Positions 28,448-44,363 of a DNA stretch of 64,000 nucleotides are shown piece after piece (positions within the stretch are counted from its first letter, which is position 1; each line of letters begins with the position of its first letter). The translations under genes were made by a program, and so were the position numbers. The notes under the pieces are model-generated. The model was not told where the DNA came from, did no database searches, and was given only the letters and a program-made list of their open reading frames with translations. Source of the stretch: Parachitinimonas caeni (GTDB lineage Bacteria > Pseudomonadota > Gammaproteobacteria > Burkholderiales > Chitinimonadaceae); assembly GCF_030129945.1 (NCBI RefSeq), contig NZ_JARRAF010000001.1, positions 124,001-188,000 of the forward strand, read 5' to 3'.

Positions 28448-28515
28448 CACACCGACCCGCCCTCTCGGCCACAGGCAGAGAGGGCAAATCGGATAATTGA
28501 AAGAGGAGAATTGAA

Positions 28516-29475
28516 ATGGACTATCCACTCTGGATGTGGGGCATATTCGCCGCCGTCGTGCTGATCCTGCTTGCACTGGATCTTGGCGTATTGAACAAGA
28601 AAGACCATGAGATCGGGGTCAAGGAGAGCCTGAAACTGTCCGCGTTTTACATCAGCGCGGGCTTGCTGTTTGGCGGCTGGGTCTGGTATCAGGCCGGACC
28701 AACCGCCGGCATGGAATACCTGACCGGCTTCCTGGTAGAAAAAAGCCTGTCAATGGACAACGTTTTTGTCATCAGCCTGATCTTCACTTACTTTGCTGTT
28801 CCGCGCGTCTATCAGCACAGAGTCCTGTTCTGGGGCATTCTGGGAGCAATCGTCCTGCGCGGCACCATGATCGGCCTGGGGGCAGCGCTGATTGATCAGT
28901 TCCAGTGGATTCTCTATATATTTGGAGCGTTCCTGGTGTTTACCGGTATAAAGATGCTTTTCATGAAGGATGATGAAACCGATGTCGGCTCCAACCCGAT
29001 GATCGGCTGGTTACGCCGGCACTTCCGCTTCACTCATGAATTGCACGGCAATCACTTCTTCGTCAAACAAGCTGATCCGAAAAACCCGTCGCGGCAGGTC
29101 TGGTGGGCAACCCCGCTGTTTCTGGCCCTGATCATGGTGGAACTGACCGACCTGATTTTCGCCGTCGATAGCGTCCCGGCCATCTTCGCCATTACCCGCG
29201 ACACGTTTATCGTGATGACGTCGAACATCTTCGCCATTCTCGGCTTGCGCGCCCTGTACTTCGCTCTGGCCGCCATGGTGCATCGCTTCCACTATCTGAA
29301 GTACGCCCTCGCGGTGGTATTGGTGTTCATCGGTATCAAGATCTTCCTGGTGAACTTTGCCATCAAGATCCCGGCGCCGCTGTCACTGACCGTCACCTTT
29401 GGCTTGCTGGCAGCTGGCGTACTGTACTCCCTCTGGAAAACGCGCAACGAGCCAATTCCCGAGACCGGTAGCTGA
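28516..29475 (+). CDS. TerC-family integral membrane protein (Alx-like)
   Basis: A 319-residue protein with about eight or nine hydrophobic helices. The TerC-family signatures are present: an acidic first helix (LILLALDLGVLN), the EKSLSMDNVFVISLIF stretch and the late VELTDLIFAVDSVPAIFAIT, whose acids are thought to bind metal. Alx of E. coli exports manganese and is controlled by a pH/Mn riboswitch. Here the upstream gap is only 68 bases. It holds an 8-bp hairpin (GCCCTCTC/GAGAGGGC) but is too short for a full yybP-ykoY riboswitch. AGAGGAG precedes the ATG. Confidence 0.92.
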   Translation: MDYPLWMWGIFAAVVLILLALDLGVLNKKDHEIGVKESLKLSAFYISAGLLFGGWVWYQAGPTAGMEYLTGFLVEKSLSMDNVFVISLIFTYFAVPRVYQHRVLFWGILGAIVLRGTMIGLGAALIDQFQWILYIFGAFLVFTGIKMLFMKDDETDVGSNPMIGWLRRHFRFTHELHGNHFFVKQADPKNPSRQVWWATPLFLALIMVELTDLIFAVDSVPAIFAITRDTFIVMTSNIFAILGLRALYFALAAMVHRFHYLKYALAVVLVFIGIKIFLVNFAIKIPAPLSLTVTFGLLAAGVLYSLWKTRNEPIPETGS

Positions 29476-29529
29476 CCTCACTGCACGATTAGGCGCTGGG
29501 GGTTTCGACGGGATAATCAATGGATTTTC

Positions 29530-29566
29530 AAGGAAGCCTTTGAATCTGCAACGCAAAGGCTTCCTT
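29530..29566. other. Long hairpin downstream of the TerC-family gene
   Basis: AAGGAAGCCTTTG (29530-29542) and CAAAGGCTTCCTT (29554-29566) give a perfect 13-bp stem with an 11-base loop. No T tract follows. It precedes a classical terminator by about 45 bases and may be an RNA 3'-end stabilising structure. Confidence 0.5.
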
Positions 29567-29611
29567 CACCAATCAGATACGTCAGCAATAGCGTCCAGCT
29601 ACACTCAAAAC

Positions 29612-29640
29612 AAAAGGCCACCGCACGCGGTGGCCTTTTT
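29612..29640. terminator. Bidirectional rho-independent terminator between TerC-family gene and grxD
   Basis: AAAAGGCCACCGC - AC - GCGGTGGCCTTTTT forms a long GC-rich stem flanked by A and T runs, so it can serve both the plus-strand TerC-family transcript and the minus-strand grxD transcript. Confidence 0.9.
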
Positions 29641-29687
29641 ACTTGGATCGTAGAGCCAACAGTCAACGGCAGACTACTGGCAGGCAA

Positions 29688-30002
29688 TCAGCCTTTGGCG
29701 GCGTCCAGCAGCTTTTGCAACTCACCAGACTGGAACAGTTCTTTCATGATGTCGGACCCCCCCACAAATTCCCCCTTGATGTATAGCTGGGGAATGGTCG
29801 GCCAGCTGGCATATTCCTTGATGCCTTGGCGGATATCGGCATCTTCCAGCACATTGACCGCCGTAAACTGGGTGCCACAAGCCTTCAGAATGGCAGCAGC
29901 ATTGGCAGAGAACCCGCACTGCGGAAAAGTCGGGGTACCTTTCATATACAGAACAACAGGGTTCTCGGTAACGGTCTGATGAATGACTTGCTGAATATCC
30001 AT
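29688..30002 (-). CDS. grxD: Monothiol glutaredoxin Grx4-type (GrxD)
   Basis: A 104-residue CGFS-type glutaredoxin, active centre C29-G30-F31-S32. Such proteins bind a glutathione-ligated 2Fe-2S cluster as dimers or with BolA and take part in cluster delivery. The glutathione-binding parts KGTP (21-24), WPTIPQLYI and GGSDIM are present. It is the last gene of the likely operon mgtE-prmC-grxD on the minus strand, 58 bases after prmC. The genome also makes glutathione (gshA and gshB in this window). Confidence 0.96.
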   Translation of the reverse strand: MDIQQVIHQTVTENPVVLYMKGTPTFPQCGFSANAAAILKACGTQFTAVNVLEDADIRQGIKEYASWPTIPQLYIKGEFVGGSDIMKELFQSGELQKLLDAAKG

Positions 30003-30060
30003 GACAAATTTCCTCCGGCCACATAGGCCAATATCCGATTGATTCAGTCGGGTATTTTAC

Positions 30061-30915
30061 TCAGCGCAATGCGGTGGCGGCAAGCTGCCCACCCGTTACC
30101 CGTTCGATGCCGGCAAGATCCTGCCAGGACTGCACCGCTGTAAATCCATGTGACTGCAGCAGCTGACGACAGGCCGCAGCCTGGTCGTAGCCATGTTCAA
30201 ACAACAGCCACCCCTCGGCATACAGATGAGCGCCTGCCTCACTGATGATCTGCCGGATATGCGCCAAGCCATCCGCACCATCCGTTAAAGCCCCTATCGG
30301 CTCAAAACGCAGATCGCCTTCAGATAAATGCCAGTCACCCGCCGCAATATAAGGCGGGTTGGAAGTGATGAGATGAAACTGCTCACCCTGCAAAGCGTCA
30401 TACCAATCGGATAGGCACCAGCGGACGGCAAACCCTAGGCACTGCCCATTCCGCTCAGCAATCGCCAAGGCATCGGGCGAAACATCCACCGCTGTCATGG
30501 TGCAGTCCGGCCGTTGCGATGCAATCGCCAGCGGGATGGCACCGCTGCCGGTCCCCAGATCAAGCACCAAGCATTGCTTGCCCAAGGGTAGACGCTCCAA
30601 AGCCAGATCAACCAGCAATTCAGTCTCCGGACGCGGGATAAGTACGCCCGGTCCAACAGCCAATTCCAGACCATAGAACTCGCGCCGCCCGAGCAGATAG
30701 GCTATCGGTTCGCCCAATCGGCGTCGGGCCACCAGTGCTTCAAACTGTGCGAAAGACGTAGCATCCAGTACGGTCTCGGGGTATGTAATTTGGCGAACAC
30801 GGTCCAGGCCGCTGGCCGCCTCCATCAGCATACGCGCCTCAGACATGGGCAGGCCACACGCCCTCAGGCTGCGATCGAGGGTAGGTAGTGCGTTGCAATG
30901 ATTTTCAGACATCAA
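30061..30915 (-). CDS. prmC: Peptide-chain release factor N5-glutamine methyltransferase PrmC
   Basis: PrmC methylates the GGQ glutamine of RF1 and RF2. The 284-residue protein has an N-terminal helical domain, the RREFYGLELAVGPGVLIPRPETELLVDLAL segment, the SAM motif VLDLGTGSGAIPLAIA and the catalytic NPPY in LITSNPPYIAAGDWHL. prfA is not adjacent; the gene instead follows mgtE by 61 bases and precedes grxD. Confidence 0.96.
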   Translation of the reverse strand: MMSENHCNALPTLDRSLRACGLPMSEARMLMEAASGLDRVRQITYPETVLDATSFAQFEALVARRRLGEPIAYLLGRREFYGLELAVGPGVLIPRPETELLVDLALERLPLGKQCLVLDLGTGSGAIPLAIASQRPDCTMTAVDVSPDALAIAERNGQCLGFAVRWCLSDWYDALQGEQFHLITSNPPYIAAGDWHLSEGDLRFEPIGALTDGADGLAHIRQIISEAGAHLYAEGWLLFEHGYDQAAACRQLLQSHGFTAVQSWQDLAGIERVTGGQLAATALR

Positions 30916-30976
30916 AAGTCCCCGTTCAGGCCCTCAGGGCCACCAAACCAGATTGGTTGAATGGCGCGAAAGGCGC

Positions 30977-32425
30977 TCAAATGTGGCGCAACAGAAACAG
31001 GGTGGCCAGGCCATAGAAAATCAAATTTCCCATGCCGTCAGTCATGAAAGTAAGAAACACGCTTGAGCCATAGGCAGGATCACGTCCCAGCTTGTGCATG
31101 GTCAGGGGTACGAACAGACCGACGGCGGCGGCAACCTGGAAATTCAGCAGCATGGCCAATGCCATTACCAGTCCCAGCCCCGGCTTGCCGTAGATGATTA
31201 ACGCCACGATACCCAGAACCCCGCCCCATAGCAGGCCATTGAGCAAAGCAATACCGAATTCCTTGGCAATCAGGCGGCGAGTACTCCCCAGATTCACCTG
31301 CCCTAGCGCCAAGGCACGAATGATAATCGTAGCCGTCTGCGAACCCGAGTTTCCGCCAATCCCCGAGATGATGGGCGCCAAGGCAGCCAGCGCAACAATG
31401 CTGGCAGTCGTAGCTTCAAAGGCTCCAATCACCCGCGACACGATGATCGCTGTGACAATATTGATCGCCAACCAGGGCCAGCGATTGCGGGCCGACTTCC
31501 AGACGGACGAGAACAAGTCTTCATCCTCGGTCAAACCCGCGAATGACAACACTTCCGATTCCGACTCTTCACGGATTACGTCAACCATCATATCGACTGT
31601 CAATCGGCCGATGACTTTTCCAACCGAATCCACCACCGGGGCCGAAATCAGGTCATAACGTTCGAAAGCCTGCGCCGCAGCGCCTACTTTATCGTCAGGA
31701 CGAAAGACCACCACGTCGGTCGCCATCACTTCATGCACCATCAAATCCGGGTCGTTCACCAGCAGCCGCTTGACTGGCAGTACCCCTTTCAGCATGTGCT
31801 CACCATCGACCACAAACAACTTGTCGGTATGGTGTGGCAGCTCGTCAAAGCGGCGCAGATAGCGCAGCACCACCTCCAGACGAACGTCATCGCGAATACT
31901 CACCATGTCGTAGTCCATCAAAGACCCGATCTGGTCTTCACGGAATGACAACGCTGACTGCAGCTGAGCCCGCTCTTCTTCTTCAAGATTGCCCAGCAGT
32001 TGATTCACCACCTGCTGCGGTAAGTCAGGCGCGAGATCTGCCAGTTCTTCGGCGTCCAGATGCTCGGCGGCAGCCAGAATTTCGTGCTGGTCCATGTCCG
32101 CCAGCAGCGTTTCCCGCACCGCATCGGATACTTCAAGCAGGATGTCACCCTCGCGGTCGCTATGGACCAAGCTCCAGACCATCAAGCGGTCATCAAGCGG
32201 CAAGGATTCGAGGATATAAGCAATGTCAGCCGGGTGGAGTTGCTCCAGCTTGCGAGCCAGTTCGGTCAGGTTCTGTTTGTGGACCAGACCTTCGACCAGG
32301 TCGTGATGAGGCATGTCCTGCTTGTGGACCAGGTCTTCAACCAGTTTGTGGCGACGGAGCAGGTGAACAACCTGCTGCAGGCTTTCCTGCAAACTTTCCT
32401 TGGGGACTGGGCTTGGAAGGCTCAT
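30977..32425 (-). CDS. mgtE: Magnesium transporter MgtE
   Basis: MgtE is a magnesium channel gated by its own cytosolic magnesium-sensing domain. The 482-residue protein has the helical N domain (residues ~40-160, with LHPADIAYILESLP and DLPQQVVNQLL). A CBS pair follows (about 160-285, with RLLVNDPDLMVHEVMATDVVVF and PVVDSVGKVIGRLT), then five membrane helices with the pore segment GNSGSQTATIIIRALALGQV. It begins the minus-strand run that continues into prmC. The first ~40 residues repeat the motif LVEDLVHKQ/LVEGLVHKQ, a small internal duplication. Confidence 0.95.
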   Translation of the reverse strand: MSLPSPVPKESLQESLQQVVHLLRRHKLVEDLVHKQDMPHHDLVEGLVHKQNLTELARKLEQLHPADIAYILESLPLDDRLMVWSLVHSDREGDILLEVSDAVRETLLADMDQHEILAAAEHLDAEELADLAPDLPQQVVNQLLGNLEEEERAQLQSALSFREDQIGSLMDYDMVSIRDDVRLEVVLRYLRRFDELPHHTDKLFVVDGEHMLKGVLPVKRLLVNDPDLMVHEVMATDVVVFRPDDKVGAAAQAFERYDLISAPVVDSVGKVIGRLTVDMMVDVIREESESEVLSFAGLTEDEDLFSSVWKSARNRWPWLAINIVTAIIVSRVIGAFEATTASIVALAALAPIISGIGGNSGSQTATIIIRALALGQVNLGSTRRLIAKEFGIALLNGLLWGGVLGIVALIIYGKPGLGLVMALAMLLNFQVAAAVGLFVPLTMHKLGRDPAYGSSVFLTFMTDGMGNLIFYGLATLFLLRHI

Positions 32426-32632
32426 CTCGGCACCATGAGCGTGGGGGTCGCCGAGTTTAGCACATAGCGTTTTCCGCTATAACTTGCGGCCTGCCACAAT
32501 CGGCGCAGAATAGGATGGCAACGCCGATTGCCGAATGGCGTCCGTATGCGAGGCAAGAATTTGCTACTTGTTGCCAAGCCAAGGCGCCCTGATATAGAAC
32601 TTTCCGAATTGTTGACAACAGAGACCGCTGCG

Positions 32633-33928
32633 ATGACCGTTCCTCACCTGGCAACTGCCCTGACTGGCCCCATCCTAGAGCTGGAGCGCCGTATTCTTGA
32701 AGCCCAACCCACGATCGAGTGTTGGTTCAGAGGTCAATGGCAGGAACACACGCCCCCCTTTTACGGATCAGTCGATTTACGCAACGCCGGGTTCAAGCTG
32801 GCGCCGGTGGATATGAATCTGTTCCCAGGCGGATTCAACAATCTGAACCCTGACTTCACGCCACTGTGTGTACAGGCGGTCATGAGTGCGCTCGACAAAA
32901 TCTGTCCCGACGCACGCGGCCTGTTGCTGATTCCGGAAAATCACACACGCAATACCTTTTATCTGCAAAACGTTGCCGCTATTACCCGTGTCCTGCGTCT
33001 GGCAGGGCTGACGGTACGCCTGGGCAGCCTCAACCCTGAAATCACCCGCCCCACCAGTATCGAAACCCCGGATGGCGGCGAGTTGCTGCTTGAGCCCATC
33101 AGCCGTCACGGCAACCGCATCATGGTCGATGGCTTCGACCCCTGTGTAGTACTGCTGAATAACGACCTGTCAGCCGGGATCCCGGCCCTGTTACAGAATC
33201 TGGAGCAGACACTGCTCCCTCCCCTACATGCAGGCTGGGCCGTCCGCCGCAAAACCCATCACTTCGCCGCGTACGACGGCGTCGCCAACGAATTTGCCAA
33301 CCTGCTCAAGATCGACCCCTGGCTGATCAACCCCTATTTTGGCCATGTTGCCGGGCTCGACTTTCAAAGCCGGGAAGGAGAAGAACAGCTGGCGGCCGAG
33401 GTGGAGAGGATCTTGAACCTGACACGGATGCGTTACGCTGAAATGGGTATCACCGAGACCCCCTACGCCGTCGTCAAAGCCAATGCCGGCACTTATGGCA
33501 TGGGCGTCATGACCGTCAAAGACCCTGCAGAAGTGGTCGGCCTCAACCGCAAGCAGCGTAACAAGATGGCCGTCGTCAAAGAGGGAATGGAAGTCAGCGA
33601 TGTGATCGTGCAAGAAGGGGTCTACACCTTCGAGACCGTCAATGCCGCCGTGGCGGAGCCGGTTGTCTACATGATGGACCGCTATGTCGTTGGCGGTTTC
33701 TATCGAGTACACACCGGCCGTGGCTCGGACGAAAACCTGAATGCGCCAGGCATGCACTTTGTACCGCTCGCCTTTGCCAGCCCCTGCTCCACGCCCGATT
33801 GCAGCGGCTTGCCAGATACCCCACCCAATCGTTTTTATGCCTACGGCGTGGTTTCCCGTTTGGCCCTGCTGGCAGCCGCTCGTGAAATCGAGCAAACCAC
33901 ACCGGCAGAAGTCGCCGTTCCAGTCTGA
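32633..33928 (+). CDS. gshA: Glutamate-cysteine ligase (proteobacterial GshA family)
   Basis: First step of glutathione synthesis, joining glutamate and cysteine with ATP. The 431-residue protein belongs to the family found in many betaproteobacteria and acidithiobacilli rather than the E. coli type, judged from motifs such as GSVDLRNAGFKLAPVDMNLFPGGFNNLNP near residue 45 and VVKANAGTYGMGVMTVKD. ATG 32633 is chosen because the conserved region starts right after it. A longer frame opens at 32528, but the added 35 residues look uncoded. Its partner gshB lies 4.5 kb downstream in another cluster. Confidence 0.92.
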   Translation: MTVPHLATALTGPILELERRILEAQPTIECWFRGQWQEHTPPFYGSVDLRNAGFKLAPVDMNLFPGGFNNLNPDFTPLCVQAVMSALDKICPDARGLLLIPENHTRNTFYLQNVAAITRVLRLAGLTVRLGSLNPEITRPTSIETPDGGELLLEPISRHGNRIMVDGFDPCVVLLNNDLSAGIPALLQNLEQTLLPPLHAGWAVRRKTHHFAAYDGVANEFANLLKIDPWLINPYFGHVAGLDFQSREGEEQLAAEVERILNLTRMRYAEMGITETPYAVVKANAGTYGMGVMTVKDPAEVVGLNRKQRNKMAVVKEGMEVSDVIVQEGVYTFETVNAAVAEPVVYMMDRYVVGGFYRVHTGRGSDENLNAPGMHFVPLAFASPCSTPDCSGLPDTPPNRFYAYGVVSRLALLAAAREIEQTTPAEVAVPV

Positions 33929-34027
33929 GCCACTTCAACCCTGGCTGCGCAACCTTTTGTTGCAGATTTGCTGGCGGGTTGTGCAGCCGCTTCAGCTCCA
34001 CCATCCGCCAGCAGCAAGCTCGGTGCT

Positions 34028-34609
34028 TTACATCGTATAACCGATGATGGTCTTGGCATGCTGGTGGGCCCAGCGGATTCGAGGTCCTACCACGCGCCAG
34101 GCAAATCCGGCGGCCAGTAGCATCACACCACCATAGAGCGCCATGAAGCCCCCATAGCCCAAGCCCAGCAAAGGCTTGGCCACGCCAAGAAACACCAGAT
34201 AGACCCAGCTTGATACCGACATGACACCCAGCATGGCAATCGGTCCCTGGCTACCGCGTACATCGCGCTTGATCCCAACCAGACGCGGCAACGCAAACTT
34301 GTAAAACACCACGGTCTTTAGCGTCAGAATCCCCATCACCGTGATCTTGGACAGCAACAATGGTTGCCGCGCAATCAGCTGCCAGGAAAACCCCGTATCA
34401 AACGCCAATACCAACAGTCCGCTGATCCAATGAGCCAGAATCGCCATCATGGTCGCCTGTGCGGATCGGAGTAAGAGGCCGGATCTCATCTGTTCGTAAC
34501 GAAAAATAGCGTGGTGGCAAGCCGTCATGGTGATGCCGGCATACACCATGGTCATCACATGACCGAACATGAACATTACCCGCAAACCCTCTGCCAAGCC
34601 ATTAGACAT
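34028..34609 (-). CDS. Uncharacterised multi-pass membrane protein
   Basis: A 193-residue protein with about five hydrophobic helices (residues ~10-30, 52-70, 83-105, 125-148, 152-172). Several histidines lie in or beside them: GHVMTM at 16-17, CHH at 31-33 and AHW near 59. These could bind haem or metal, but I cannot assign a family with confidence. It is a single gene convergent with gshA and divergent from rnfC across a 690-base AT-rich region. Good codon use and clear topology support it as a real gene. Confidence 0.75.
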   Translation of the reverse strand: MSNGLAEGLRVMFMFGHVMTMVYAGITMTACHHAIFRYEQMRSGLLLRSAQATMMAILAHWISGLLVLAFDTGFSWQLIARQPLLLSKITVMGILTLKTVVFYKFALPRLVGIKRDVRGSQGPIAMLGVMSVSSWVYLVFLGVAKPLLGLGYGGFMALYGGVMLLAAGFAWRVVGPRIRWAHQHAKTIIGYTM

Positions 34610-34816
34610 CCCGTTCCCTATCTGAAAAACATGGGGGACGGGATTATTACCCTGATTTGCGTTTGCTACAAAAACATGCTTTTATCATAATACTTATCTT
34701 ACTTTGTAATCAAACTAAATAATAAAGGTCTTGGCATCGCCGTATTTTCTCTCTACAGTAGCGAACAATAAAAATGTAAGACAAGCAAACCCCGCGCAAC
34801 ACGCCGGGTAACCACA

Positions 34817-34854
34817 CCAAGGCAGACCTTCAACCGATTGAAGGTCTGCCTTGG
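34817..34854. repeat. Perfect 17-bp inverted repeat with 4-base loop
   Basis: CCAAGGCAGACCTTCAA (34817-34833) and TTGAAGGTCTGCCTTGG (34838-34854) with loop CCGA. No T tract follows on either strand, so it is not a typical terminator although it lies in a divergent region. Confidence 0.9.
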
Positions 34855-35126
34855 CGTTTGAAACGGACCCAATGGAGTCTGCTCTGCGACGTCTGACTTG
34901 GCCACTTGCATCCACCCGCATGGCGGAACAGATAAAATTCAGGTCATATATTATTGTTTCATAACAATATAAGTATTTCTTCCTTACCGAGAATACCCTG
35001 GCCCGACAGGAACAATAACCGCCACCTCATGCGGAAATTGCACAGCACGATATCAATTTTGCCGCACAATTTTCTGCAGAAAATACAAAAATTTATGCAA
35101 GACAAGCTAGATCTTTCGGCCTATAT

Positions 35127-35144
35127 TATTAGAATATTCTAATA
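35127..35144. promoter_or_regulatory. 18-bp AT-rich palindrome upstream of rnfC
   Basis: TATTAGAATATTCTAATA is perfectly palindromic and lies 154 bases before the rnfC ATG. Its form resembles operators bound by dimeric winged-helix repressors, but no regulator gene is adjacent and the binder is unknown. Confidence 0.45.
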
Positions 35145-35297
35145 CACAGGCTTGCACCACTGCGATAGCGTCTAAGCTTTCTGGAAAATTACTGCATATT
35201 GAAAAATGATGAAGTCATTATTCAAATGCTCTGAATAATTTCATTGGCATTTCCCCAATCTTGATTTGGGGTGATAACAGCCCCAGCAGGAGTGATC

Positions 35298-36668
35298 ATG
35301 CAACTGAACGCCGAACAGAGCGTCAGGCCAGTTCTTAGCTGGTTGAAACAGCGAGTCAGCGTACGGGACACCCAGATAGAGTCCTGGCGTGGCGGCGTAC
35401 ATCTACCTGATCAGAAGCATCTTTCCAATCGCCGGCATATCCGCCATGCCCCCTTGCCGCGCATGCTGTGCGTACCTTTGGGCTGGAATGGCCGAGAAGC
35501 TCAGCCTGTAGTTGTACCAGGTCAGCGCGTTCTCAAAGGCCAGGCGATTGCCAGTGGTGTTGGTACGGCCGTATGGGTGCACGCTCCCACCTCGGGCATC
35601 GTCAAACGCATCATGCCGGTCCCCGTTGCACCGGGCACCCAGATGCCAACCTGCATCGTCATTGAGTCCGATGGAGAAGACGAGTGGGGGATGCTGGAAC
35701 CACTGGCACGAGAAGAAACCAGTATTGATACCCTCTCGGCGTTTCTGATGCAGAAGGGATTAGTCGGGCTAGGGGGGGCAGGATTCCCGACCGGTCTCAA
35801 ACTCAAAGGGGGTGATCGCACCATCGACACCTTGGTGGTCAATGGTGCCGAGTGCGAGCCTTTTATCACCTGCGATGATCGCCTGATGCGGGAACGGGCT
35901 CTGAGCGTATTGCAAGGCGTGCAGGTACTGGCAAACACCCTGCAGGTAGACCGTGTGCGAATTGGTATTGAAGATAACAAGCCGACTGCCATCCGACGTA
36001 TGCAGGAAGCGTGTGCACAGATTCATTCCAATATCGAGGTCGTCGAAATTCCAACCCGCTATCCGGCAGGCAGCCTGCGTCATCTGGTCAAAGCGCTGAC
36101 CGGCCGGACCATTCCGGAAGGGGCCCTGCCAGCCGCCATTGGCGTCACGGCACTGAACGTCGCCACGGCTTTCGCGGTAGGACAGGCCGTACTGGAAGGG
36201 CGTCCGCTGATTTCACGTATCGTCACCGTCACCGGTTTATGTGAGCGACCAGGCAATTTCGAGGTACCTATCGGTATGGGGGTCCGGCAACTGATCGGCT
36301 TGGCCTTGCCCCAGCCCGATGCGCGAGGCGTTCATGTGGGTGGGCCGATGATGGGGGAAAGTCTGGCCCACCGCATGTCTGTCGTGGCAAAAACCACCAG
36401 CTGTCTGATTGTGGGCGCCCGCAGCCTGTTGCCACCTCGACCTGAACCCACGCCTTGCATCCGTTGCAGTCGCTGTGCCGATGCCTGCCCGGTAGGCTTG
36501 CAGCCAATGGAGCTTTTCCGCGCCAGCAGCAACGACAACCGGCCGTTACTGGCTACACTGAAGATCAACTCCTGTATCGAATGCGGTGCGTGCAGCTATG
36601 TTTGTCCGAGCAATATCCCATTGCGAGATACCTTCCGGCAGCAGAAGCGGGCTCAGGCCAAGCGCTAG
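35298..36668 (+). CDS. rnfC: RnfC-like NADH/FMN/iron-sulphur electron-transfer subunit
   Basis: RnfC is the peripheral NADH-oxidising subunit of the Rnf/Rsx complex. The 456-residue protein has an N-terminal barrel-sandwich part with GVHLPDQKHLS, the nucleotide-binding motif GLVGLGGAGFPTGLKLKG and NGAECEPFITCDDRLM. Near residues 387-398 and 426-437 are two 4Fe-4S motifs (CIRCSRCADACP and CIECGACSYVCP). ATG 35298 follows AGGAG by seven bases; an in-frame start at 35271 is less supported. It heads a run with rnfD and apbE, but rnfA, rnfB, rnfG and rnfE are not here. Confidence 0.9.
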   Translation: MQLNAEQSVRPVLSWLKQRVSVRDTQIESWRGGVHLPDQKHLSNRRHIRHAPLPRMLCVPLGWNGREAQPVVVPGQRVLKGQAIASGVGTAVWVHAPTSGIVKRIMPVPVAPGTQMPTCIVIESDGEDEWGMLEPLAREETSIDTLSAFLMQKGLVGLGGAGFPTGLKLKGGDRTIDTLVVNGAECEPFITCDDRLMRERALSVLQGVQVLANTLQVDRVRIGIEDNKPTAIRRMQEACAQIHSNIEVVEIPTRYPAGSLRHLVKALTGRTIPEGALPAAIGVTALNVATAFAVGQAVLEGRPLISRIVTVTGLCERPGNFEVPIGMGVRQLIGLALPQPDARGVHVGGPMMGESLAHRMSVVAKTTSCLIVGARSLLPPRPEPTPCIRCSRCADACPVGLQPMELFRASSNDNRPLLATLKINSCIECGACSYVCPSNIPLRDTFRQQKRAQAKR

Positions 36669-36794
36669 GCTCAGGCCGCCCGCACTACCAGGCAGAAACG
36701 CGAGCCGTACGGTTTCCTGCCAGCCTTTCCCCCGGTCAGCGCCCCCTGCTGCGGCGACCGCATCCGGGCCTGATCGCATCCGGATCAGCGCACC

Positions 36795-37727
36795 ATGTAT
36801 GTAATCAAGTCAACCCCTGCCTTGATGCTGGCAGTCGCCATCGCCCTCATGCCGGGCATGGTGCTACACGGTCTGCAATTTGGTCCTGCCGTCTGGCTAC
36901 AGGTGGGCATCTGTCTTGTCGCAGCCCTGCTGGCCGAACTGGCGGCGGCTTTTTATCGCCAAGTCGGGCTGGTAAAAACCCTGGCCGACTGCAGCTGGGT
37001 TCCCACGGGCCTGCTACTGGGTCTGTCCCTGGCGCCGCTGACCCCGATTTATCTGGACCTCCTCGCGACAATCGTTGCCATCAACCTGATCAAACATGGC
37101 GCCGGCGGCATGGGCCAGAACCGGATCAATCCTGCAATGGGTGGCTTGATGGTCGTCGCCTTGGCATTTCCCACCCTGCTTTATCCCGCCCCTTCTGCCC
37201 ACGCCCCCTGGCTGGCCCAGGTTGATCTTGCCCAGGCCTGGCAAGCCATCCTGCGCATTGGACCGCGTCTGCATTTTGACGCCATGGCGAGCGCCACCCC
37301 GCTCGCTAATCACTATCAAGGCGGGTTCAGCGTGCATTGGTCGGTGTTTGGTTATCTGCTGGGCGGACTGGCGCTGGCAGCGTTACGGGTCATCCGGCTG
37401 GAGATTCCGTTGATGCTGCTGGCAAGCTGTGCGCTGACCTGCGTTGCGCTCGGTGAAAGCTGGGCAGACTCTCTCACTGAACTGTTATATGGCGGCTTGA
37501 TGCTGGCAGCGTTCTTCATTGCGACCGACCCCGTCACCAGTCCAGTCACCTTCAAAGGCCGCCTTGTCTATGCCGCACTGATCGGCGCCCTGATTGGCAC
37601 AGTCCGCCGTTTCGGACTTTATCCGGACGGGATCTGCATCGCCGTGGTTCTTTGCAATCTGCTAGTCGTTGATATCGACCGCCGTATGCGCCCTGCCGTT
37701 TTTGGCAACCCGCCGGCAGGGCGCTGA
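36795..37727 (+). CDS. rnfD: RnfD-like flavinylated membrane subunit
   Basis: NqrB/RnfD-family membrane protein, 310 residues with about nine hydrophobic helices. In Rnf this subunit carries FMN bound covalently to a threonine. Here the matching motif is DAMASATPL with T168 as the likely attachment residue, and apbE, the FMN transferase, is four genes on. Other family marks are GAGGMGQNRINPAMGG and DPVTSPVTFKGRL. The 126-base gap after rnfC and the short N-terminus leave the start uncertain: an in-frame stop lies 24 bases upstream, and the region before it has no conserved sequence I can read. Confidence 0.88.
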   Translation: MYVIKSTPALMLAVAIALMPGMVLHGLQFGPAVWLQVGICLVAALLAELAAAFYRQVGLVKTLADCSWVPTGLLLGLSLAPLTPIYLDLLATIVAINLIKHGAGGMGQNRINPAMGGLMVVALAFPTLLYPAPSAHAPWLAQVDLAQAWQAILRIGPRLHFDAMASATPLANHYQGGFSVHWSVFGYLLGGLALAALRVIRLEIPLMLLASCALTCVALGESWADSLTELLYGGLMLAAFFIATDPVTSPVTFKGRLVYAALIGALIGTVRRFGLYPDGICIAVVLCNLLVVDIDRRMRPAVFGNPPAGR

Positions 37728-37784
37728 ACCGAAACCTCGCAGAGCAACCCGCTATAAAGACTTGCAGGCACCCCGCCCCTTGCC

Positions 37785-38402
37785 ATGCCCGCTCACCGCC
37801 CCCACATCGTGCATAACCTGAGCCTGACCGGCCTGCTTTGGCTAAGCCTCACAGGCTGCGCTGTGCGCCCGATTGTCAACTTGGCAGAACCTTCACTGTC
37901 CCGACAGCAGCAAGAGCACGCCACGCTGGTGGCGATCCGGCAACGGGGCCAGACGGGTGATTGGCTGGTCATCCGTGGCGTACACGCCACCGATAACCTG
38001 GTTGCCTCCATGACCAATATGGCGTTGTCGCATGCGGGCGTACTGGATCTTGCGCAGATGCAGGTGATTGAAGCAGATGGCAGTGGCGTCCATCTCACGC
38101 CACTGCCGGAATTTATCGGCAAATCTGCCCGGCTGATGCTAATCCGCCCGCAATGGTCTGGTGGCGAGGTCGCCGTTGCCCGCGCCTACCAACTGCTGGG
38201 GCGGCATTACGATTACACTGGCCTGATTGGACTGAATCAGCCAGAACGCTACTACTGTACGGAGCTGGCAATCAGCATTTACACCTCCGCAGCCGAAAGC
38301 GACCACGGCAATCCGATTCCACCCGTCATTGCCCCAGGCCAGCTCTACCATTGGGGAACCATTCTTTACGACTCCGGCCCAGTTCTGACCCTTCCGCCAT
38401 AG
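37785..38402 (+). CDS. Lipoprotein with a YiiX-like papain-type (NlpC/P60-related) fold
   Basis: A 205-residue predicted lipoprotein: a hydrophobic leader ends SLTGC with the lipid cysteine at C25. The rest resembles the permuted papain-like YiiX/YaeF group (peptidase family C92). H83 in LSHAGVLD and C158 in the ERYYCTEL motif fit the catalytic pair, and ADGSGVHLTPLPEF gives the typical strand. Substrate unknown; amide or ester hydrolysis at the cell envelope is plausible. It lies 57 bases after rnfD and 9 before gshB, so it probably shares their transcript. Confidence 0.78.
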   Translation: MPAHRPHIVHNLSLTGLLWLSLTGCAVRPIVNLAEPSLSRQQQEHATLVAIRQRGQTGDWLVIRGVHATDNLVASMTNMALSHAGVLDLAQMQVIEADGSGVHLTPLPEFIGKSARLMLIRPQWSGGEVAVARAYQLLGRHYDYTGLIGLNQPERYYCTELAISIYTSAAESDHGNPIPPVIAPGQLYHWGTILYDSGPVLTLPP

Positions 38403-38411
38403 ACCCAAACC

Positions 38412-39353
38412 ATGAAAATCGCCTTTCTCGCCGACCCTCTCGACCACTTCAAGATCTACAAAGACACGACCTTCGCCATGATGCGGGAAGCCGCGCAGCG
38501 TGGGCACACCCTCTACGCTTTCGAGCAAACAGACATGGCGCGCCTGCACGGCAGGGTGCAGGCGCGCGCTACCCCAATCCAGCTGACAGGTGCGTCGCCC
38601 GACTGGTATCGGGCAGGCGAGGCTGAAACAATCGGTTTGAATGCATTCGACGCCGTGATCATGCGTAAAGACCCGCCGTTCGATCTGGAATATCTCTATG
38701 CCACCCAGCTGCTCGAACAAGCCGAACGCGAAGGCGCCAAGGTCTTTAATGCGGCGCGGGCTTTGCGTGACTACAACGAGAAGCTGGCGATTCTGCGCTT
38801 TCCCGAATTCATTGCGCCGACCATCGTTACCCGCGCAGCCGACGATATCGTCCACTTCCTGCAGGAACACGGCGACGTCATCCTCAAACCGTTGGATGGC
38901 ATGGGCGGCAGCGGCATTTTCCGCCTGACCAGCAATGACCCCAACCTGGGTGTAATTCTCGAAACCCAGACCCGATTCGGCCAACAGACCGTGATGGTGC
39001 AACGCTACTTGCCCGCCATCAAAGACGGTGACAAGCGCGTGCTGCTGATTGACGGCCAGCCCGTTGACTGGTGCCTGGCGCGGATCCCCAAAGCCGGCGA
39101 AACCCGAGGCAATCTGGCTGCGGGGGGCACTGGCGTCGCTCGGCCGTTGTCCGCACGCGATCGAGAAATCGCCGAAGCACTTGGCCCGCAGTTGCGGGCT
39201 GAAGGATTGTTACTGGTTGGACTGGATGTGATCGGCGACTGTCTGACGGAAGTCAACGTCACCAGCCCGACCTGCTTTCAGGAAATCAGTGCGCAATCGG
39301 GCATCAATGTTGCCGGACTGTTTCTGAATGGGCTTGAGCGTGCTTTGGCCTGA
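38412..39353 (+). CDS. gshB: Glutathione synthetase
   Basis: Adds glycine to gamma-glutamylcysteine using ATP. The 313-residue ATP-grasp enzyme has [21 protein letters not shown], the [17 protein letters not shown] segment, [16 protein letters not shown] (ATP-binding loop), [22 protein letters not shown] and the late [15 protein letters not shown]. It lies between the papain-like lipoprotein and apbE (19-base gap), an unusual place for gshB. Confidence 0.96.
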
Positions 39354-39372
39354 AACGCCGACCCCGTGGCGC

Positions 39373-40395
39373 ATGACAGGCTGCCTGCTGCTGACAGCCT
39401 GTCTGGCCGGCTGCCAGCAACCTCCTCTGGTGCAACAGGAACGCTATGTTTTCGGCACCCGCGTCCAGATCAGCATCTGGGGATTACCAGAAGCGCTATC
39501 CCGACAGGAAATGGATCGCGTGCTAGGTGAGATGGAACGCTTGCATCGCAAACTGCACGCTTGGCAAACCAGCGATCTGACACGACTCAATACCGCTTTC
39601 TCGATTGGCGAGGCGGCCACCATCGACATCGAACTGCGTGGCCTCCTGCAGGAAGCCGCCCGTTACGAAACCATCAGCGATGAACTGTTCTGTCCGGCCA
39701 TTGGCATGCTGGTCGCGGAATGGGGGTTTCATCAAGATCAACCCAAACCCGCCAACCCGGACCCACACGTCATCACCAGTGTTGTCACCGCCAAACCACG
39801 CCTCAGTGATCTGGACATCAGCGACACCACAGTATCCAGCCGCAATCCGACCGTGCAGCTAGATCTGGGGGGCATGGCCAAAGGCTTTGCGCTCGACCAT
39901 GCCGCAGCCATGCTGCAAAAACACCGCATCAACAACGCGCTGATCAATATCGGCGGCCATGTGCTGGCCCTGGGCAAGAAAGGCAACGAAGCCTGGAAAG
40001 TCGGCATCCAGGACACGCGCCGGCCGGAAGCCATGGCTGTGGTCGAATTGCAGGACGGGGAGGCCATCGGTACATCTGGCGACTATCAGCGCTACTTCGA
40101 AAAAGACGGACAACGCTACAGCCACCTGATTGATCCACGCAGTGGCCGACCCGCACAGGGCATACGTGCCGTAACTGTCATTGCCCCCAAAGGATTACGG
40201 GCGGGTACGGTATCCGATGTCGCAACCAAGCCGATGTTCATCGGCGGCCTGGACACTGCCCGCGACTATGCGAACCGCTTTGGCATCCGCGATGCGCTGC
40301 TGGTCAGCAACGATGGCTCGGTCTATATCACTCCCAGCCTGCAACCGCGACTGAAGTGGCTACTTCCGCCGCGTCATCTATATTGGCTGCGTTAG
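39373..40395 (+). CDS. apbE: FAD:protein FMN transferase ApbE (lipoprotein)
   Basis: ApbE transfers FMN from FAD onto a threonine of exported or membrane proteins such as RnfD, RnfG and NqrB/C. The 340-residue protein starts with a lipoprotein leader, MTGCLLLTACLAGCQQ. It has the family motifs VFGTRVQISIWG near the N-terminus, LDLGGMAKGFALDHA, NIGGHVLALG and the metal/FAD part YFEKDGQRYSHLIDPRSGRP. ATG 39373 gives the leader directly; a longer frame from 39328 overlaps gshB. RnfD upstream is its likely target. Its TAG stop (40393-40395) joins a short palindromic element. Confidence 0.93.
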   Translation: MTGCLLLTACLAGCQQPPLVQQERYVFGTRVQISIWGLPEALSRQEMDRVLGEMERLHRKLHAWQTSDLTRLNTAFSIGEAATIDIELRGLLQEAARYETISDELFCPAIGMLVAEWGFHQDQPKPANPDPHVITSVVTAKPRLSDLDISDTTVSSRNPTVQLDLGGMAKGFALDHAAAMLQKHRINNALINIGGHVLALGKKGNEAWKVGIQDTRRPEAMAVVELQDGEAIGTSGDYQRYFEKDGQRYSHLIDPRSGRPAQGIRAVTVIAPKGLRAGTVSDVATKPMFIGGLDTARDYANRFGIRDALLVSNDGSVYITPSLQPRLKWLLPPRHLYWLR

Positions 40396-40456
40396 GTTCT
40401 GTTGACGTGAGGTTCACCGTCGCGTTTCGCAGGAAAACCTGTCATCCACAGAACCT
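40394..40456. mobile_element. Short palindromic (MITE-like) element, copy 1
   Basis: 63 bases with 21-base imperfect terminal inverted repeats: AGGTTCTGTTGACGTGAGGTT at 40394-40414 and AACCTGTCATCCACAGAACCT at 40436-40456. One end reads TGTTGACG, the other (inverted) TGTGGATG, the same asymmetric pair as at 45336-45391. No coding capacity. It overlaps the apbE stop codon and lies before the PTS genes. Confidence 0.65.
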
Positions 40457-40605
40457 GGGCTGCCGCCTGCTTGTCACAGCAGTGGCTGGTAAACGGTGTA
40501 GAATCGGCAAAAATACCAGTATGGCTGCACCGCTTGTCCACCAGCGCGGCAACCGACTGGCCTTCTGAACCTACCCGCCGCCCCGAGCGGCAACGAGAGA
40601 CCTGA

Positions 40606-41052
40606 ATGATAGGCATTGTGATCGTGACCCACGTCACGCTGGGCGACAGCCTGATCCAGTGCGCTCAGCACATCCTCGGCAGGGAATTGCATAACCTGGC
40701 CCAACTGGCGGTCAGTCGCCAGGATGACCCCGACGAAGTCGTGCAACGCGCCAAAGCACTGGTTGCCAGCGTCAACGATGGCTCCGGCGTGCTGGTGTTG
40801 TCAGACATCTACGGCGGCACCCCTTCGAATATTGCTTATCGCCTGATCGAGCCCGGCCATATCGAAGCGGTGGCCGGGGTCAATCTACCCATGCTGGTGC
40901 GGGCACTCACCTATAGTCATGAATCACTGGAAGTCGTTGTCGGCAAGGCCATTACCGGTGGCCTCGAAGGCGTCATGTATATGCTGCCTCCCGAAAACGC
41001 CGTCCGGCATGAAGAAAAAACAAATGCTATCGGCACAGCCAACACAGGATAA
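40606..41052 (+). CDS. PTS EIIA component, mannose/fructose (EIIA-Man) family
   Basis: A 148-residue EIIA-Man-type phosphocarrier, with the phosphorylatable H9 in IVIVTHVTLG and the signature LVLSDIYGGTPSNIAYRL. No EIIB, EIIC or EIID follows; instead HPr and EI come next. In Betaproteobacteria this partial PTS has a regulatory role rather than sugar uptake, probably linking phosphoenolpyruvate level to other proteins. It starts 150 bases after the palindromic element and ends four bases before ptsH. Confidence 0.93.
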   Translation: MIGIVIVTHVTLGDSLIQCAQHILGRELHNLAQLAVSRQDDPDEVVQRAKALVASVNDGSGVLVLSDIYGGTPSNIAYRLIEPGHIEAVAGVNLPMLVRALTYSHESLEVVVGKAITGGLEGVMYMLPPENAVRHEEKTNAIGTANTG

Positions 41053-41055
41053 GTG

Positions 41056-41325
41056 ATGCAACAGATCGAGATCGAAATCATCAACAAACTGGGCTTGCAT
41101 GCCCGCGCCTCATCCAAGCTGACCCAGCTGGCCGGGCGTTACAAGTGTGAAGTGTGGCTCACCCGCAACGGCAAGCGGGTCAACGCCAAAAGTATCATGG
41201 GGGTCATGATGCTGGCCGCTGCCAAGGGCAGCAAGATCAGCATCGAGACCAATGGCGCAGACGAGGAGGCAGCGCTGGCAGCGCTGGTGGAGCTCATCAA
41301 CAATCGGTTCGACGAGGCCGAATAG
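41056..41325 (+). CDS. ptsH: Phosphocarrier protein HPr
   Basis: An 89-residue HPr with H15 (GLHARASS) for phosphate from EI and S46 (NAKSIMGVMML) for regulatory phosphorylation by HPr kinase where present. hprK is not in this window. ATG 41056 is chosen over GTG 41053. EI follows after 35 bases. Confidence 0.96.
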   Translation: MQQIEIEIINKLGLHARASSKLTQLAGRYKCEVWLTRNGKRVNAKSIMGVMMLAAAKGSKISIETNGADEEAALAALVELINNRFDEAE

Positions 41326-41360
41326 CGAGCCGCCGTCGGGCGGTTGCGGGGAGGCAGGAC

Positions 41361-43100
41361 ATGGCGATTACCTTGCATGGCATCGGTATCGGCGGCGGCG
41401 TCGCCATTGGCCGCGCCCACCTCGTTTCGCATGCGGATATTGATATCGACCACTACGACATCGCGCCGGAGCAAGTCCCTGCCGAGATCGCCCGCTTCGA
41501 TGCCGCCATCCGCGCCACGCGCAAAGAACTGGAAATGCTCTGGGGCAGCATCCCCGAAAATGCCCCAACCGAACTGGGCGCCTTTCTTTCGCTGCACATC
41601 ATGCTGCTCAACGACCACACAATCTCGCGCGAACCGCGAGAAATCATCGAGGAGCTCGGCTGCAATGCCGAATGGGCACTCAAGCTGCAGCAAGACCGGC
41701 TGTTGGCCCAATTTGATGAGATCGAAGAAAGCTATCTGCGCGAGCGTCGCAATGACGTGAATCAGGTCATTGAGCGGGTCTTCAAGTCTCTCGACGGCCG
41801 GGCCAGCACCAGCCAGCCGGTTACCGACCGGCAACGCAACAATATTCTGGTGGCGCATGATCTCTCGCCCGCCGACATGATCCTGTTCAAGGACACCGAG
41901 TTCGCCGCCTTCATCACCGACCTGGGTGGCCCGACTTCGCACACCGCCATTCTCGCCCGCAGCCTCGACATCCCTTCGGTGCTGGCCCTGCACCATGCCC
42001 GACAGCTGATCCGCGAAGATGAAATGATCATCGTCGATGGCGCTGCCGGGGTCGTGATTGTCGATCCTGACGAAACCATTCTGGACCAGTACAAACGCCG
42101 CCAGACTGCGATTTCTCAAGAACGCAAGCGGCTGAAGAGCTTGAAATCGACTGCCGCCACCACACGCTGCGGCACCCCGATCGAGCTATATGCCAATATC
42201 GAGGGGCCGTCGGATATCGAGCATGTGCGAGCCAACGGTGCCAATGGCATCGGCCTGTATCGCAGCGAGTTCCTGTTCCTGGGCCGCGATGGTCTGCCGC
42301 CGGAAGATGAACAGTACGAAGCCTACAAGGCCGTACTCGAAGGTATGAAAGGCGGGCCGGTCACCATACGTACTGTCGATCTCGGCCGTGACAAGATGCC
42401 GAAGTGGGCAGACACCAGCAATAGCCCCAATCCGGCACTGGGCCTGACCGGGGTCAGGCTATGCCTGGCCGAGCCGCAGATGTTCCGCACCCAGCTGCGG
42501 GCTTTGCTGCGCGCAAGCAGCCACGGCCATCTGCGCTTACTGGTGCCGATGCTGGCCTCGTTGCACGAGGTCAACCAGGTCCTGTTCCACGTCGAGCAGG
42601 CCAAGCAAAGCCTGCTGGAAGAAGGCGTCAAACTGGGTGACAACATCCAGGTTGGCGGGATGATCGAAATTCCGGCAGCGGCGTTAACCGTTGGCCACTT
42701 TCTGAAACGACTCGACTTTGTCTCCATCGGCACCAACGACCTGATCCAATACACGCTGGCCGTTGATCGTGGAGATGATGCCGTCTCGCATTTGTATGAT
42801 CCGCTGCATCCAGCCGTGCTGCACCTGATCGCCCACACCATCCGCTCTGCCGATAAAGCGGGTGTGCCGGTGTCCGTCTGCGGTGAAATGGCAGGCGACC
42901 CGCGCATGACGCGCTTGCTGTTGGGCCTGGGCTTGCGCCGCTTTTCGATGCACCCGGCGCAGCTGCTGACGGTCAAGCAAATCATCCTGAATACCGATAT
43001 TTCAATGGTGACCCCCATCGCAACCCGTATCCAGAAAGCCGAGGATGCCGATCGGGTACGCAGCCTGCTCGCCGACCTCAACTCGGTTGGTACCAACTAG
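41361..43100 (+). CDS. ptsI: Phosphoenolpyruvate-protein phosphotransferase (PTS enzyme I)
   Basis: Transfers phosphate from phosphoenolpyruvate to HPr. The 579-residue protein has the phospho-His segment GGPTSHTAILARSLDIPSV near residue 190, the PEP-binding barrel signatures IGLYRSEFLFLGR and RTVDLGRDKMPKW, VGGMIEIPAAAL, SIGTNDLIQYTLAVDR and the catalytic cysteine region VCGEMAGDP. ATG 41361 follows GGGAGGCAGGAC. A much longer open frame begins at 41154, but it overlaps ptsH and reads as out-of-frame sequence. Confidence 0.97.
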   Translation: MAITLHGIGIGGGVAIGRAHLVSHADIDIDHYDIAPEQVPAEIARFDAAIRATRKELEMLWGSIPENAPTELGAFLSLHIMLLNDHTISREPREIIEELGCNAEWALKLQQDRLLAQFDEIEESYLRERRNDVNQVIERVFKSLDGRASTSQPVTDRQRNNILVAHDLSPADMILFKDTEFAAFITDLGGPTSHTAILARSLDIPSVLALHHARQLIREDEMIIVDGAAGVVIVDPDETILDQYKRRQTAISQERKRLKSLKSTAATTRCGTPIELYANIEGPSDIEHVRANGANGIGLYRSEFLFLGRDGLPPEDEQYEAYKAVLEGMKGGPVTIRTVDLGRDKMPKWADTSNSPNPALGLTGVRLCLAEPQMFRTQLRALLRASSHGHLRLLVPMLASLHEVNQVLFHVEQAKQSLLEEGVKLGDNIQVGGMIEIPAAALTVGHFLKRLDFVSIGTNDLIQYTLAVDRGDDAVSHLYDPLHPAVLHLIAHTIRSADKAGVPVSVCGEMAGDPRMTRLLLGLGLRRFSMHPAQLLTVKQIILNTDISMVTPIATRIQKAEDADRVRSLLADLNSVGTN

Positions 43101-43229
43101 GCTCCGCCTGGCTACCCTCTACTTCGTTGCACTGTTCAGATTCCAGCCAGCCGCCCATCGGCGCCGACTGGCTGGCGCAAGTCATACTATTCACCGCTTT
43201 GCAGTCTGGAGACCCGTTTGAGTCAAACC

Positions 43230-44363
43230 ATGAAACTGGCCATCGTCCGCCAGAAATACAATCCATCCGGTGGCGCCGAGCGCTTTGTCAGCCGCGCCAT
43301 TGCAGCCCTGGCCGGATCGGTGGAAGTCACCTTGATCACCCGCAAATGGGAAGACCATGCCGGCTATCAATCCATCAAGGTAGACCCGTTCTACCTGGGC
43401 TCAGTCTGGCGGGACTGGAGTTTTGCACGGGGCGTCGCCCAGGCCGTCCGCAGCCAGCCTTTCGATCTGGTGCAATCGCATGAAAGACTGCCCGATTGCG
43501 ATCTGTACCGTGCCGGCGATGGCGTCCATCGCGAATGGCTGGCACAGCGCACCCGCCAGCAAAGCGCACTGGGACGACTGGCGAATCAACTCAACCCTTA
43601 TCACCACTACGCGATGTGGGCGGAAAGCCGGTTGTTCCATAGTCCCCGGCTCAAAGCCGTGATCTGCAATTCGCAGATGGTCAAAGACGAAATCCAGCGC
43701 TGGTTTGGTCTGCCTGCCGACAAGCTGCATGTGATTTACAGCGGAATTGATGCCACGAACTTTCACCCGGAAACAGCCAGGCAGCGCCGGGACGTATTGC
43801 GCGCTAACCTGGGCATTCCGGCCGAGGTGGCCACTTTGGTCTATGTGGGCGCCGGTTTTGAACGCAAAGGTGTCGCCTGCTGCATCCGCGCCTTGGCGCA
43901 GGCCGGAGGAAAAGCCCATCTGCTGGTCGTCGGGAACGACAAAAAATCCAGCCAGTACCAGCAGCTGGCGCAGCAACTGAATGTGAGCCAGCGCGTGCAC
44001 TTTGTTGGCGCACAGAAGCAGGTAGCTGATTGGTATGGTGCTGCGGATGCCCTCTTCCTACCGACGCTGTACGACCCCTTTCCCAATGTTGCCTTGGAGG
44101 CGTTTGCCTGTGGTTTGCCGGTACTGACCAGCACCAAATCCGGTGCCGCTGAATTCATACGGGAAGGCCAGAATGGCTTTGTGCGCGATGCACTGGACGT
44201 CGCCGGCTTCGCCGCCCTGCTGGCACAGCGGCCACACGCCGCTGACTGGCAGGTCATGTCCGAAGCTGCTCGCCAAACCATTCTTCCCTATTCGCCAGCG
44301 GCAATGGGAGAAGCGCTGACCCGCCTTTATCGCCAACTGCTACAAGCACCTCCGGCCGCTTGA
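43230..44363 (+). CDS. Family 4 glycosyltransferase, lipopolysaccharide-core type
   Basis: A 377-residue GT-B glycosyltransferase that uses an activated sugar, probably for LPS core assembly. It opens MKLAIVRQKYNPSGGAERFVSRAI, with the GGAE acceptor loop. The nucleotide-sugar domain shows VIYSGIDATNFHPE, LVYVGAGFERKGVACCIRAL and the GT4 E-x7-E motif in FPNVALEAFACGLPVLTS. This looks close to WaaG/RfaG-like enzymes, but sugar and acceptor cannot be read. ATG 43230 is chosen; a TTG at 43218 is an alternative. No other LPS gene is adjacent. Confidence 0.88.
   Translation: MKLAIVRQKYNPSGGAERFVSRAIAALAGSVEVTLITRKWEDHAGYQSIKVDPFYLGSVWRDWSFARGVAQAVRSQPFDLVQSHERLPDCDLYRAGDGVHREWLAQRTRQQSALGRLANQLNPYHHYAMWAESRLFHSPRLKAVICNSQMVKDEIQRWFGLPADKLHVIYSGIDATNFHPETARQRRDVLRANLGIPAEVATLVYVGAGFERKGVACCIRALAQAGGKAHLLVVGNDKKSSQYQQLAQQLNVSQRVHFVGAQKQVADWYGAADALFLPTLYDPFPNVALEAFACGLPVLTSTKSGAAEFIREGQNGFVRDALDVAGFAALLAQRPHAADWQVMSEAARQTILPYSPAAMGEALTRLYRQLLQAPPAA

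Follow-up and report, generated by a model that had tools for sequence, protein, structure and literature searches.

A stand-alone rnfC-rnfD pair in Parachitinimonas caeni as a candidate Rnf-derived electron wire from NADH to the periplasm

Introduction

The closest described relative of the system considered here is the Rnf complex (RnfABCDGE, or RsxABCDGE). In its solved path, as given in the cited parts of the structural literature, electrons move along NAD(H) (nicotinamide adenine dinucleotide), the flavin mononucleotide (FMN) of RnfC, two 4Fe-4S clusters, the riboflavin of RnfD, the FMN of RnfD, and RnfG (PMC12174285, PMC9588780, PMC11889175). This study concerns a pair of plus-strand genes, rnfC (35298..36668) and rnfD (36795..37727), in a 64,000-nucleotide window of the Parachitinimonas caeni genome (contig NZ_JARRAF010000001.1, positions 124,001 to 188,000), to which coordinates without a prefix refer. 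Both products are homologous to their Rnf counterparts over their whole cores and retain those 4Fe-4S, riboflavin, and covalent-FMN residues that were checked. Unlike Rnf, the pair has no RnfA, RnfB, RnfG, or RnfE beside it, lacks a ferredoxin end, and is cut in what aligns with the RnfG-contact linker. The comparisons below make it probable that the pair is a stand-alone, Rnf-derived transmembrane wire carrying electrons from NADH to the periplasm. Which subunit of Rnf and Nqr moves Na+ is disputed, the cited sections favoring RnfD/NqrB for Clostridium tetanomorphum (PMC9588780) and in NQR work versus RnfA/E alone in a 2025 study of Acetobacterium woodii (PMC11889175). A natural RnfC-RnfD pair without RnfA, RnfE, and RnfG lets one ask what RnfD conducts by itself: electrons, ions, or both.

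Two-subunit NQR/RNF-like systems were described by Meheust in 2021 (PMC8238504). The relevant parts of two surveys of flavinylated systems present them as having an RnfD/NqrB-type membrane part, an association with ApbE, and a proposed one-way electron flow from NAD(P)H to the outside (PMC8238504, PMC11334425). The pair shares with them the two-subunit composition, the type of membrane part, the proposed direction of flow, and the ApbE association. The same sections describe a membrane part joined to a PF00175 NAD domain, lacking its own FMN site, and partnered by an extracytosolic FMN_bind protein, whereas the pair has RnfC as its donor subunit, an FMN threonine in RnfD, and a genome without an FMN_bind protein. 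Pfam detected no PF00175 domain in the RnfD (310 aa) or RnfC of the window. RnfC does not occur in the main text of either survey (PMC8238504, PMC11334425), and no description of a stand-alone RnfC-RnfD pair was found among the matches listed in an open-access literature search, outside which subscription papers mostly fall. Na+-NQR is related through NqrB, a homologue of RnfD, but the window genome has no NqrC, NqrD, or NqrE, and the pair has no NqrB glycine pair. RnfC of the pair keeps two cluster motifs, in contrast to NqrA of Na+-NQR, which carries no redox cofactors according to the cited section (PMC12174285).

Results and Discussion

Cofactor sites and linker of the pair

Five further rnfC-rnfD pairs were found, in Vogesella indigofera, Marinobacterium arenosum, Pontibacterium granulatum, Chitinibacter tainanensis, and an Oceanospirillaceae metagenome-assembled genome. 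Their RnfD proteins are 37-47% identical to that of the window, and their open reading frames (ORFs) are intact. In the window, RnfC, which has an FMN/NADH domain, scored 445.9 bits against TIGR01945 (cut-off, 245.95) and RnfD scored 211.7 bits against PF03116. RnfD also passes the TIGR01946 cut-off of 207.05 (209.6 bits), below which the Vogesella (201.9) and Chitinibacter (174.1) proteins fall.

The cofactor residues checked along the Rnf path are conserved, as an initial annotation made from the DNA sequence had recognized for both 4Fe-4S motifs and the NADH loop of RnfC and for Thr168 of RnfD. The RnfC motifs in the window are CIRCSRCADACP and CIECGACSYVCP, with GLGGAGFP as the flavin loop, and both cluster motifs are kept in all six pair members. 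Thr168 (codon 37296..37298, plus strand; D-A-M-A-S-A-T), the predicted FMN attachment site, aligns with the FMN threonine column, which is T in 6/6 pair members and in 113/113 other RnfD rows (a few genes fetched twice are included among the 113); the loss of this residue in relatives, named beforehand as a possible objection, is not seen in any of the six. The riboflavin Asn and Asp of RnfD are likewise kept in 6/6. They are N112 and D245 in the window, and their equivalence to N123 and D249 of A. woodii RnfD, listed with T156 as flavin residues in the cited section (PMC11889175), was read by eye from alignments. The AlphaFold2 (AF2) model of the window RnfD matches Azotobacter vinelandii RnfD with a Z score of 31.0 and a root mean square deviation of 3.4 over 295 residues.

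The pairs depart from other RnfD proteins in the linker running from the FMN threonine to the next helix motif, which has 20-21 residues in 6/6 pairs (21 in the window, 37299..37361, plus strand) versus 33-45 (median, 41) in the 113 other rows; the A. woodii and C. tetanomorphum linkers have 40 residues by hand count. In the C. tetanomorphum complex, the cited part of the report places RnfG on a five-helix linker, an occlusion loop of which covers the FMN (PMC9588780). Judged by alignment, the stretch cut in the pairs is this RnfG-contact linker. An N-terminal extension of RnfC and a shorter N-terminal arm of RnfD were also considered as pair traits and set aside, as their ranges overlap those of other rows.

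Phylogeny and distribution

The six pair members form one clade in both subunits. Support for the RnfD clade was 100 by the Shimodaira-Hasegawa-like approximate likelihood ratio test (SH-aLRT) in a quick tree of 80 rows and 100/100 (bootstrap/SH-aLRT) in a careful tree of 77 rows from which the linker columns had been removed, and in the quick RnfC tree (68 rows) the clade had an SH-aLRT of 99. Five Shewanella rows were kept in the quick trees and three in the careful tree. All trees leave out L008, which is the same as contig C293 of the window genome. The quick RnfD tree also leaves out L127, L128, L129, and L131, the RnfD proteins of the hosts' other sets; the careful tree restores L127-L129 and omits L131 and four rows repeating others. 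Long end branches were flagged for RnfD2 (see below), Chitinibacter (L050), and the window RnfD, among others. Profile scores agree with the clade: held-out pair RnfD proteins scored 288-478 bits, and no non-member among 116 RnfD rows exceeded 215; the corresponding RnfC scores are 503-713 bits for held-out pair proteins and at most 482 for non-members.

The pairs stand apart from other Rnf genes. In tblastn searches (E, 1e-3), RnfA, RnfB, RnfG, and RnfE matched neither the window nor any of the five other pair loci (15-17 kb), whereas all four queries matched each of three complete control loci, including other Vogesella and Chitinibacter loci. At the level of the whole window genome (5.65 Mb, 337 contigs, 97% complete), there were no matches to PF02508 (RnfA/RnfE/NqrD/NqrE) or to FMN_bind, PF04205 (RnfG/NqrC), with Escherichia coli as a positive control for both; a complete rnfABCDGE set was thus not found elsewhere in the genome. 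The absence of RnfA, RnfB, RnfG, and RnfE described in the initial annotation therefore stands for RnfA, RnfE, and RnfG but not for RnfB, which is encoded on contig C293. Participation of the pair in a full RnfA/E complex is excluded in the window genome, unless RnfA, RnfE, and RnfG lie in the 3% missing from the assembly.

The five further pairs came from a scan of named genomes in which 407 of 457 stretches were confirmed and 80 loci kept; five is a lower bound, because the scan relied on just two short peptide patterns. In an order-level sample of 399 genomes, 155 had an RnfD match and 148 had a PF02508 match, the strongest relative in the order being 48% identical (genome G035). When the two lists were compared by eye, nine genomes had an RnfD match without PF02508: the window genome (E, 3e-201) plus eight genomes whose matches were weak (E, 8e-4 to 1e-9; G022, G046, G104, G124, G162, G256, G273, and G341), none of which proved to carry an rnfC-rnfD pair when followed. 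Seven of the eight (L150-L156) have a distantly RnfD-like membrane protein encoded next to a relative of one DUF2330 protein (7/7 by tblastn); of the two scanned with Pfam, L154 passed the DUF2330 cut-off and L150 narrowly missed it. In locus L149 of G022, which is without PF02508, rnfB adjoins an RnfD-like gene whose product, by eye, is without the riboflavin Asn and Asp. The only other class-level match (G403; E, 1e-60; 220 bits; 369 genomes, with at most six first-look candidates scored per listed genome) belongs to a canonical rnfC-D-G-E run. In a further two genomes, which belong to one genus and have two PF02508 matches apiece, a probably secreted protein of 153-163 residues with no known identity is encoded between rnfC and rnfD (L043:7721-11527 and L044:7617-11590).

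Other Rnf and ApbE genes in the genome

The window genome contains two full-length RnfD matches and a weak one under the cut-off, two RnfC matches, and two ApbE matches. The second RnfC and RnfD belong to another reduced set, rnfB-rnfC2-X277-rnfD2, on the minus strand of contig C293 (L008:5972-10217), which is also without RnfA, RnfG, and RnfE. RnfD2 retains both riboflavin residues, Asn and Asp, but its FMN threonine column holds Leu and its linker is 17 residues long. X277 (277 residues) matched no Pfam family over the cut-off and no NCBIfam family, and its AF2 model has a predicted local distance difference test score of 33.6. The set is preceded by folD-like and pyrD-like genes (by eye) and followed by two opposite-strand ORFs and then nth (Pfam), surroundings that resemble the rsx-nth neighborhood of E. 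coli. In another genome of the order (L042), folD-like and pyrD-like genes lie beside a complete rnf set.

The second ApbE is encoded on contig C44 (L009:8858-12141) and adjoins a DUF3570 protein (Pfam), which the cited part of a survey lists as a known type of ApbE substrate (PMC8238504). This is probably a separate flavinylated system of the described ApbE-DUF3570 kind, at its own locus and with its own apbE and its own probable substrate, so RnfD remains a candidate substrate for the ApbE of the window. By eye, the C44 locus also holds genes for a TlpA-like thioredoxin and a cytochrome c-like protein.

Proposed electron path and alternatives

Because the solved Rnf path runs from RnfC to RnfD, these two subunits alone would span the distance from NADH to the periplasmic face. 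If the conserved sites are occupied and RnfC contacts RnfD, NADH would reduce an FMN in cytoplasmic RnfC, and electrons would pass through the two 4Fe-4S clusters of RnfC to riboflavin in RnfD and on to an FMN on Thr168 near the periplasmic face. The ApbE encoded in the same run is the predicted enzyme for attaching this FMN. The FMN would be more exposed than in Rnf because the RnfG-contact linker is cut, and it could pass electrons on to an acceptor in the periplasm or the membrane. A two-subunit NADH-to-envelope module had been proposed in the initial annotation and gains support from the comparison: the pair occurs in five other genomes, forms one clade, keeps the cofactor residues that were checked, and has a cut linker. 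The pair may be a minimal electron export line. The chances are about even that the pairs represent a minimal class of Rnf descendants, an RnfC-RnfD wire that leads from NADH to a covalently bound, periplasm-exposed FMN and dispenses with ferredoxin, the RnfG shuttle, and the RnfA/E pump. If so, they would give NADH one more flavin-based route out to the envelope, with RnfC as the donor subunit, and would be a natural experiment isolating the second half of the Rnf path.

Several observations weigh against an electron wire. No acceptor was identified, the neighbors of the pair differ in all six loci, and apbE lies beside the pair in the window only. The pair is rare, being carried, beyond the window, by 5 of the 80 scan loci and by no further genome of the 369 in the class sample. 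The RnfC flavin loop is GLGGAGFP in five of the six members and GMGGAGFS in Chitinibacter, and the linker region (159-179) is among the least confident parts of the RnfD AF2 model. The RnfC tail after the last cluster motif is short in the pairs (15-22 residues, 19 in the window, versus 75-503 in 93 other rows), but this alone is not diagnostic, because complete Rnf complexes also have short RnfC proteins (435 and 443 aa). Finally, the five other hosts encode 2-4 PF02508 proteins each, so the pair is no replacement for Rnf/Nqr there. Because of these proteins, the pair could in principle join a full complex in those five hosts, its products taking the place of the usual RnfC and RnfD of a complete Rnf under some condition; Vogesella and Chitinibacter have their RnfA, RnfB, RnfG, and RnfE genes together at another locus. 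Such swapping is nevertheless unlikely, given a window genome without RnfA, RnfE, and RnfG and an RnfG-contact linker that is cut in 6/6.

An electron wire ending in a periplasm-facing FMN also has to be weighed against quinone reduction: RnfD could, like NqrB, pass electrons to membrane quinone, which would make the pair a non-pumping NADH:quinone oxidoreductase. RnfD and NqrB have a common fold (Z, 25-27), and NqrB passes electrons to quinone according to the cited section (PMC12174285), but the glycine pair G140-G141, stated in the cited part of another study to be needed for ubiquinone (PMC4014512), is not seen in helix III of any of the six RnfD proteins at the position where Pontibacterium NqrB reads GG. 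The N-terminal extension of that NqrB, the one compared, is absent from the pairs as well, and quinone reduction of this kind is quite improbable. The C293 cluster could be taken as a sign that the genome is losing Rnf genes and the pair as a functionless leftover of a decaying Rnf operon, as the cluster lacks RnfA, RnfG, and RnfE, its RnfD2 has lost the FMN threonine, and none of nine other genomes of the family searched has an RnfD match. The existence of six diverged pairs with intact ORFs and all of the checked cofactor residues, grouped in one clade that would not be expected from decay, makes this very improbable. Hardly any probability attaches to a single hybrid machine built from the window pair and the RnfB-RnfC2-X-RnfD2 set of C293. 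The two sets share a genome and the lack of RnfA, RnfE, and RnfG, and they could complement each other in that the FMN threonine is present only in the window RnfD and rnfB was found only on C293 (the remainder of the genome was not searched for rnfB); however, each of the five other genomes also encodes RnfA/E-type proteins, and no residue-level link between the sets was found.

Genomic neighborhood of the pair

In the window, the pair is followed on the plus strand by genes for a YiiX/YaeF-like (C92) permuted papain-fold lipoprotein (37785..38402), a glutathione synthase (gshB, 38412..39353), and a lipoprotein ApbE (39373..40395), a FAD (flavin adenine dinucleotide):protein FMN transferase. 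The gene identities and the gaps of 126, 57, 9, and 19 bases are as first annotated, and the range given then, 34610-40456, holds the same genes but begins in intergenic sequence, the first gene starting near 35298 and apbE ending at 40395. The rnfC ORF extends from a GTG at 35271, and the ATG at 35298, which is preceded by GGAG, is the more likely start. The YiiX assignment reaches the Pfam C92 cut-off (PF05708, 30.9 bits; cut-off, 27) but not that of the NCBIfam YiiX equivalog (26.1 of 216 bits). ApbE is over the PF02424 cut-off (224.2 bits), with a lipobox read by eye, and gshB (TIGR01380, 433.5 bits) is an ordinary neighbor.

The five-gene run is particular to the window genome among the six. 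The YiiX-like gene and gshB occur in 0/5 of the other pair loci, and the ApbE link expected in relatives is not kept, with apbE in 0/5 of these loci, which were the only part of the five host genomes searched for it. A suggested tie to thiol or glutathione chemistry did not hold up either: rnfC, rnfD, YiiX, and apbE are found in 0/8 gshB loci of family relatives, each about 3.9 kb and reaching about 1.5 kb beyond gshB (the gshB ORF itself was missed in L140 and L145). These loci have gshA in four cases, ptsIIA or HPr in three, and neither in L144 and L145. The glutathione idea is thus one of position only, because gshA-gshB and gshB-ptsIIA neighborhoods occur in relatives without the pair genes, and a glutathione link of the pair is unsupported. 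In the window, gshA, the glutamate-cysteine ligase gene (32528..33928, plus strand; PF08886, 647 bits; TIGR02049, 643 bits), is likewise an ordinary neighbor outside the module, and genes for a mannose-type phosphotransferase system IIA protein, HPr, and ptsI follow apbE on its 3' side.

A CopD-like membrane protein, named by eye and with no Pfam or NCBIfam match, is encoded on the minus strand (34028-34609), divergently from rnfC. It was considered as a conserved partner, as a similar protein is encoded near the Vogesella pair (L041:7193-7738), and is not claimed as one. The two are 32% identical over 91 aa (E, 3e-4 in a two-sequence comparison; E, 0.13 against the ORFs of eight loci), no relative was found in the other four pair loci, and the presence of weakly similar CopD/DUF2214-like proteins near two of six pairs is probably due to chance. 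The intergenic region between this gene and rnfC, 5' of the latter, contains a perfect 15-bp inverted repeat (34819..34852) that is present as a single copy in the window. An Rfam search of 28000-44000 gave no match, and hence none for the repeat; the predicted RNA fold of 34800-34880 has a z score of -6.4, a strong hairpin.

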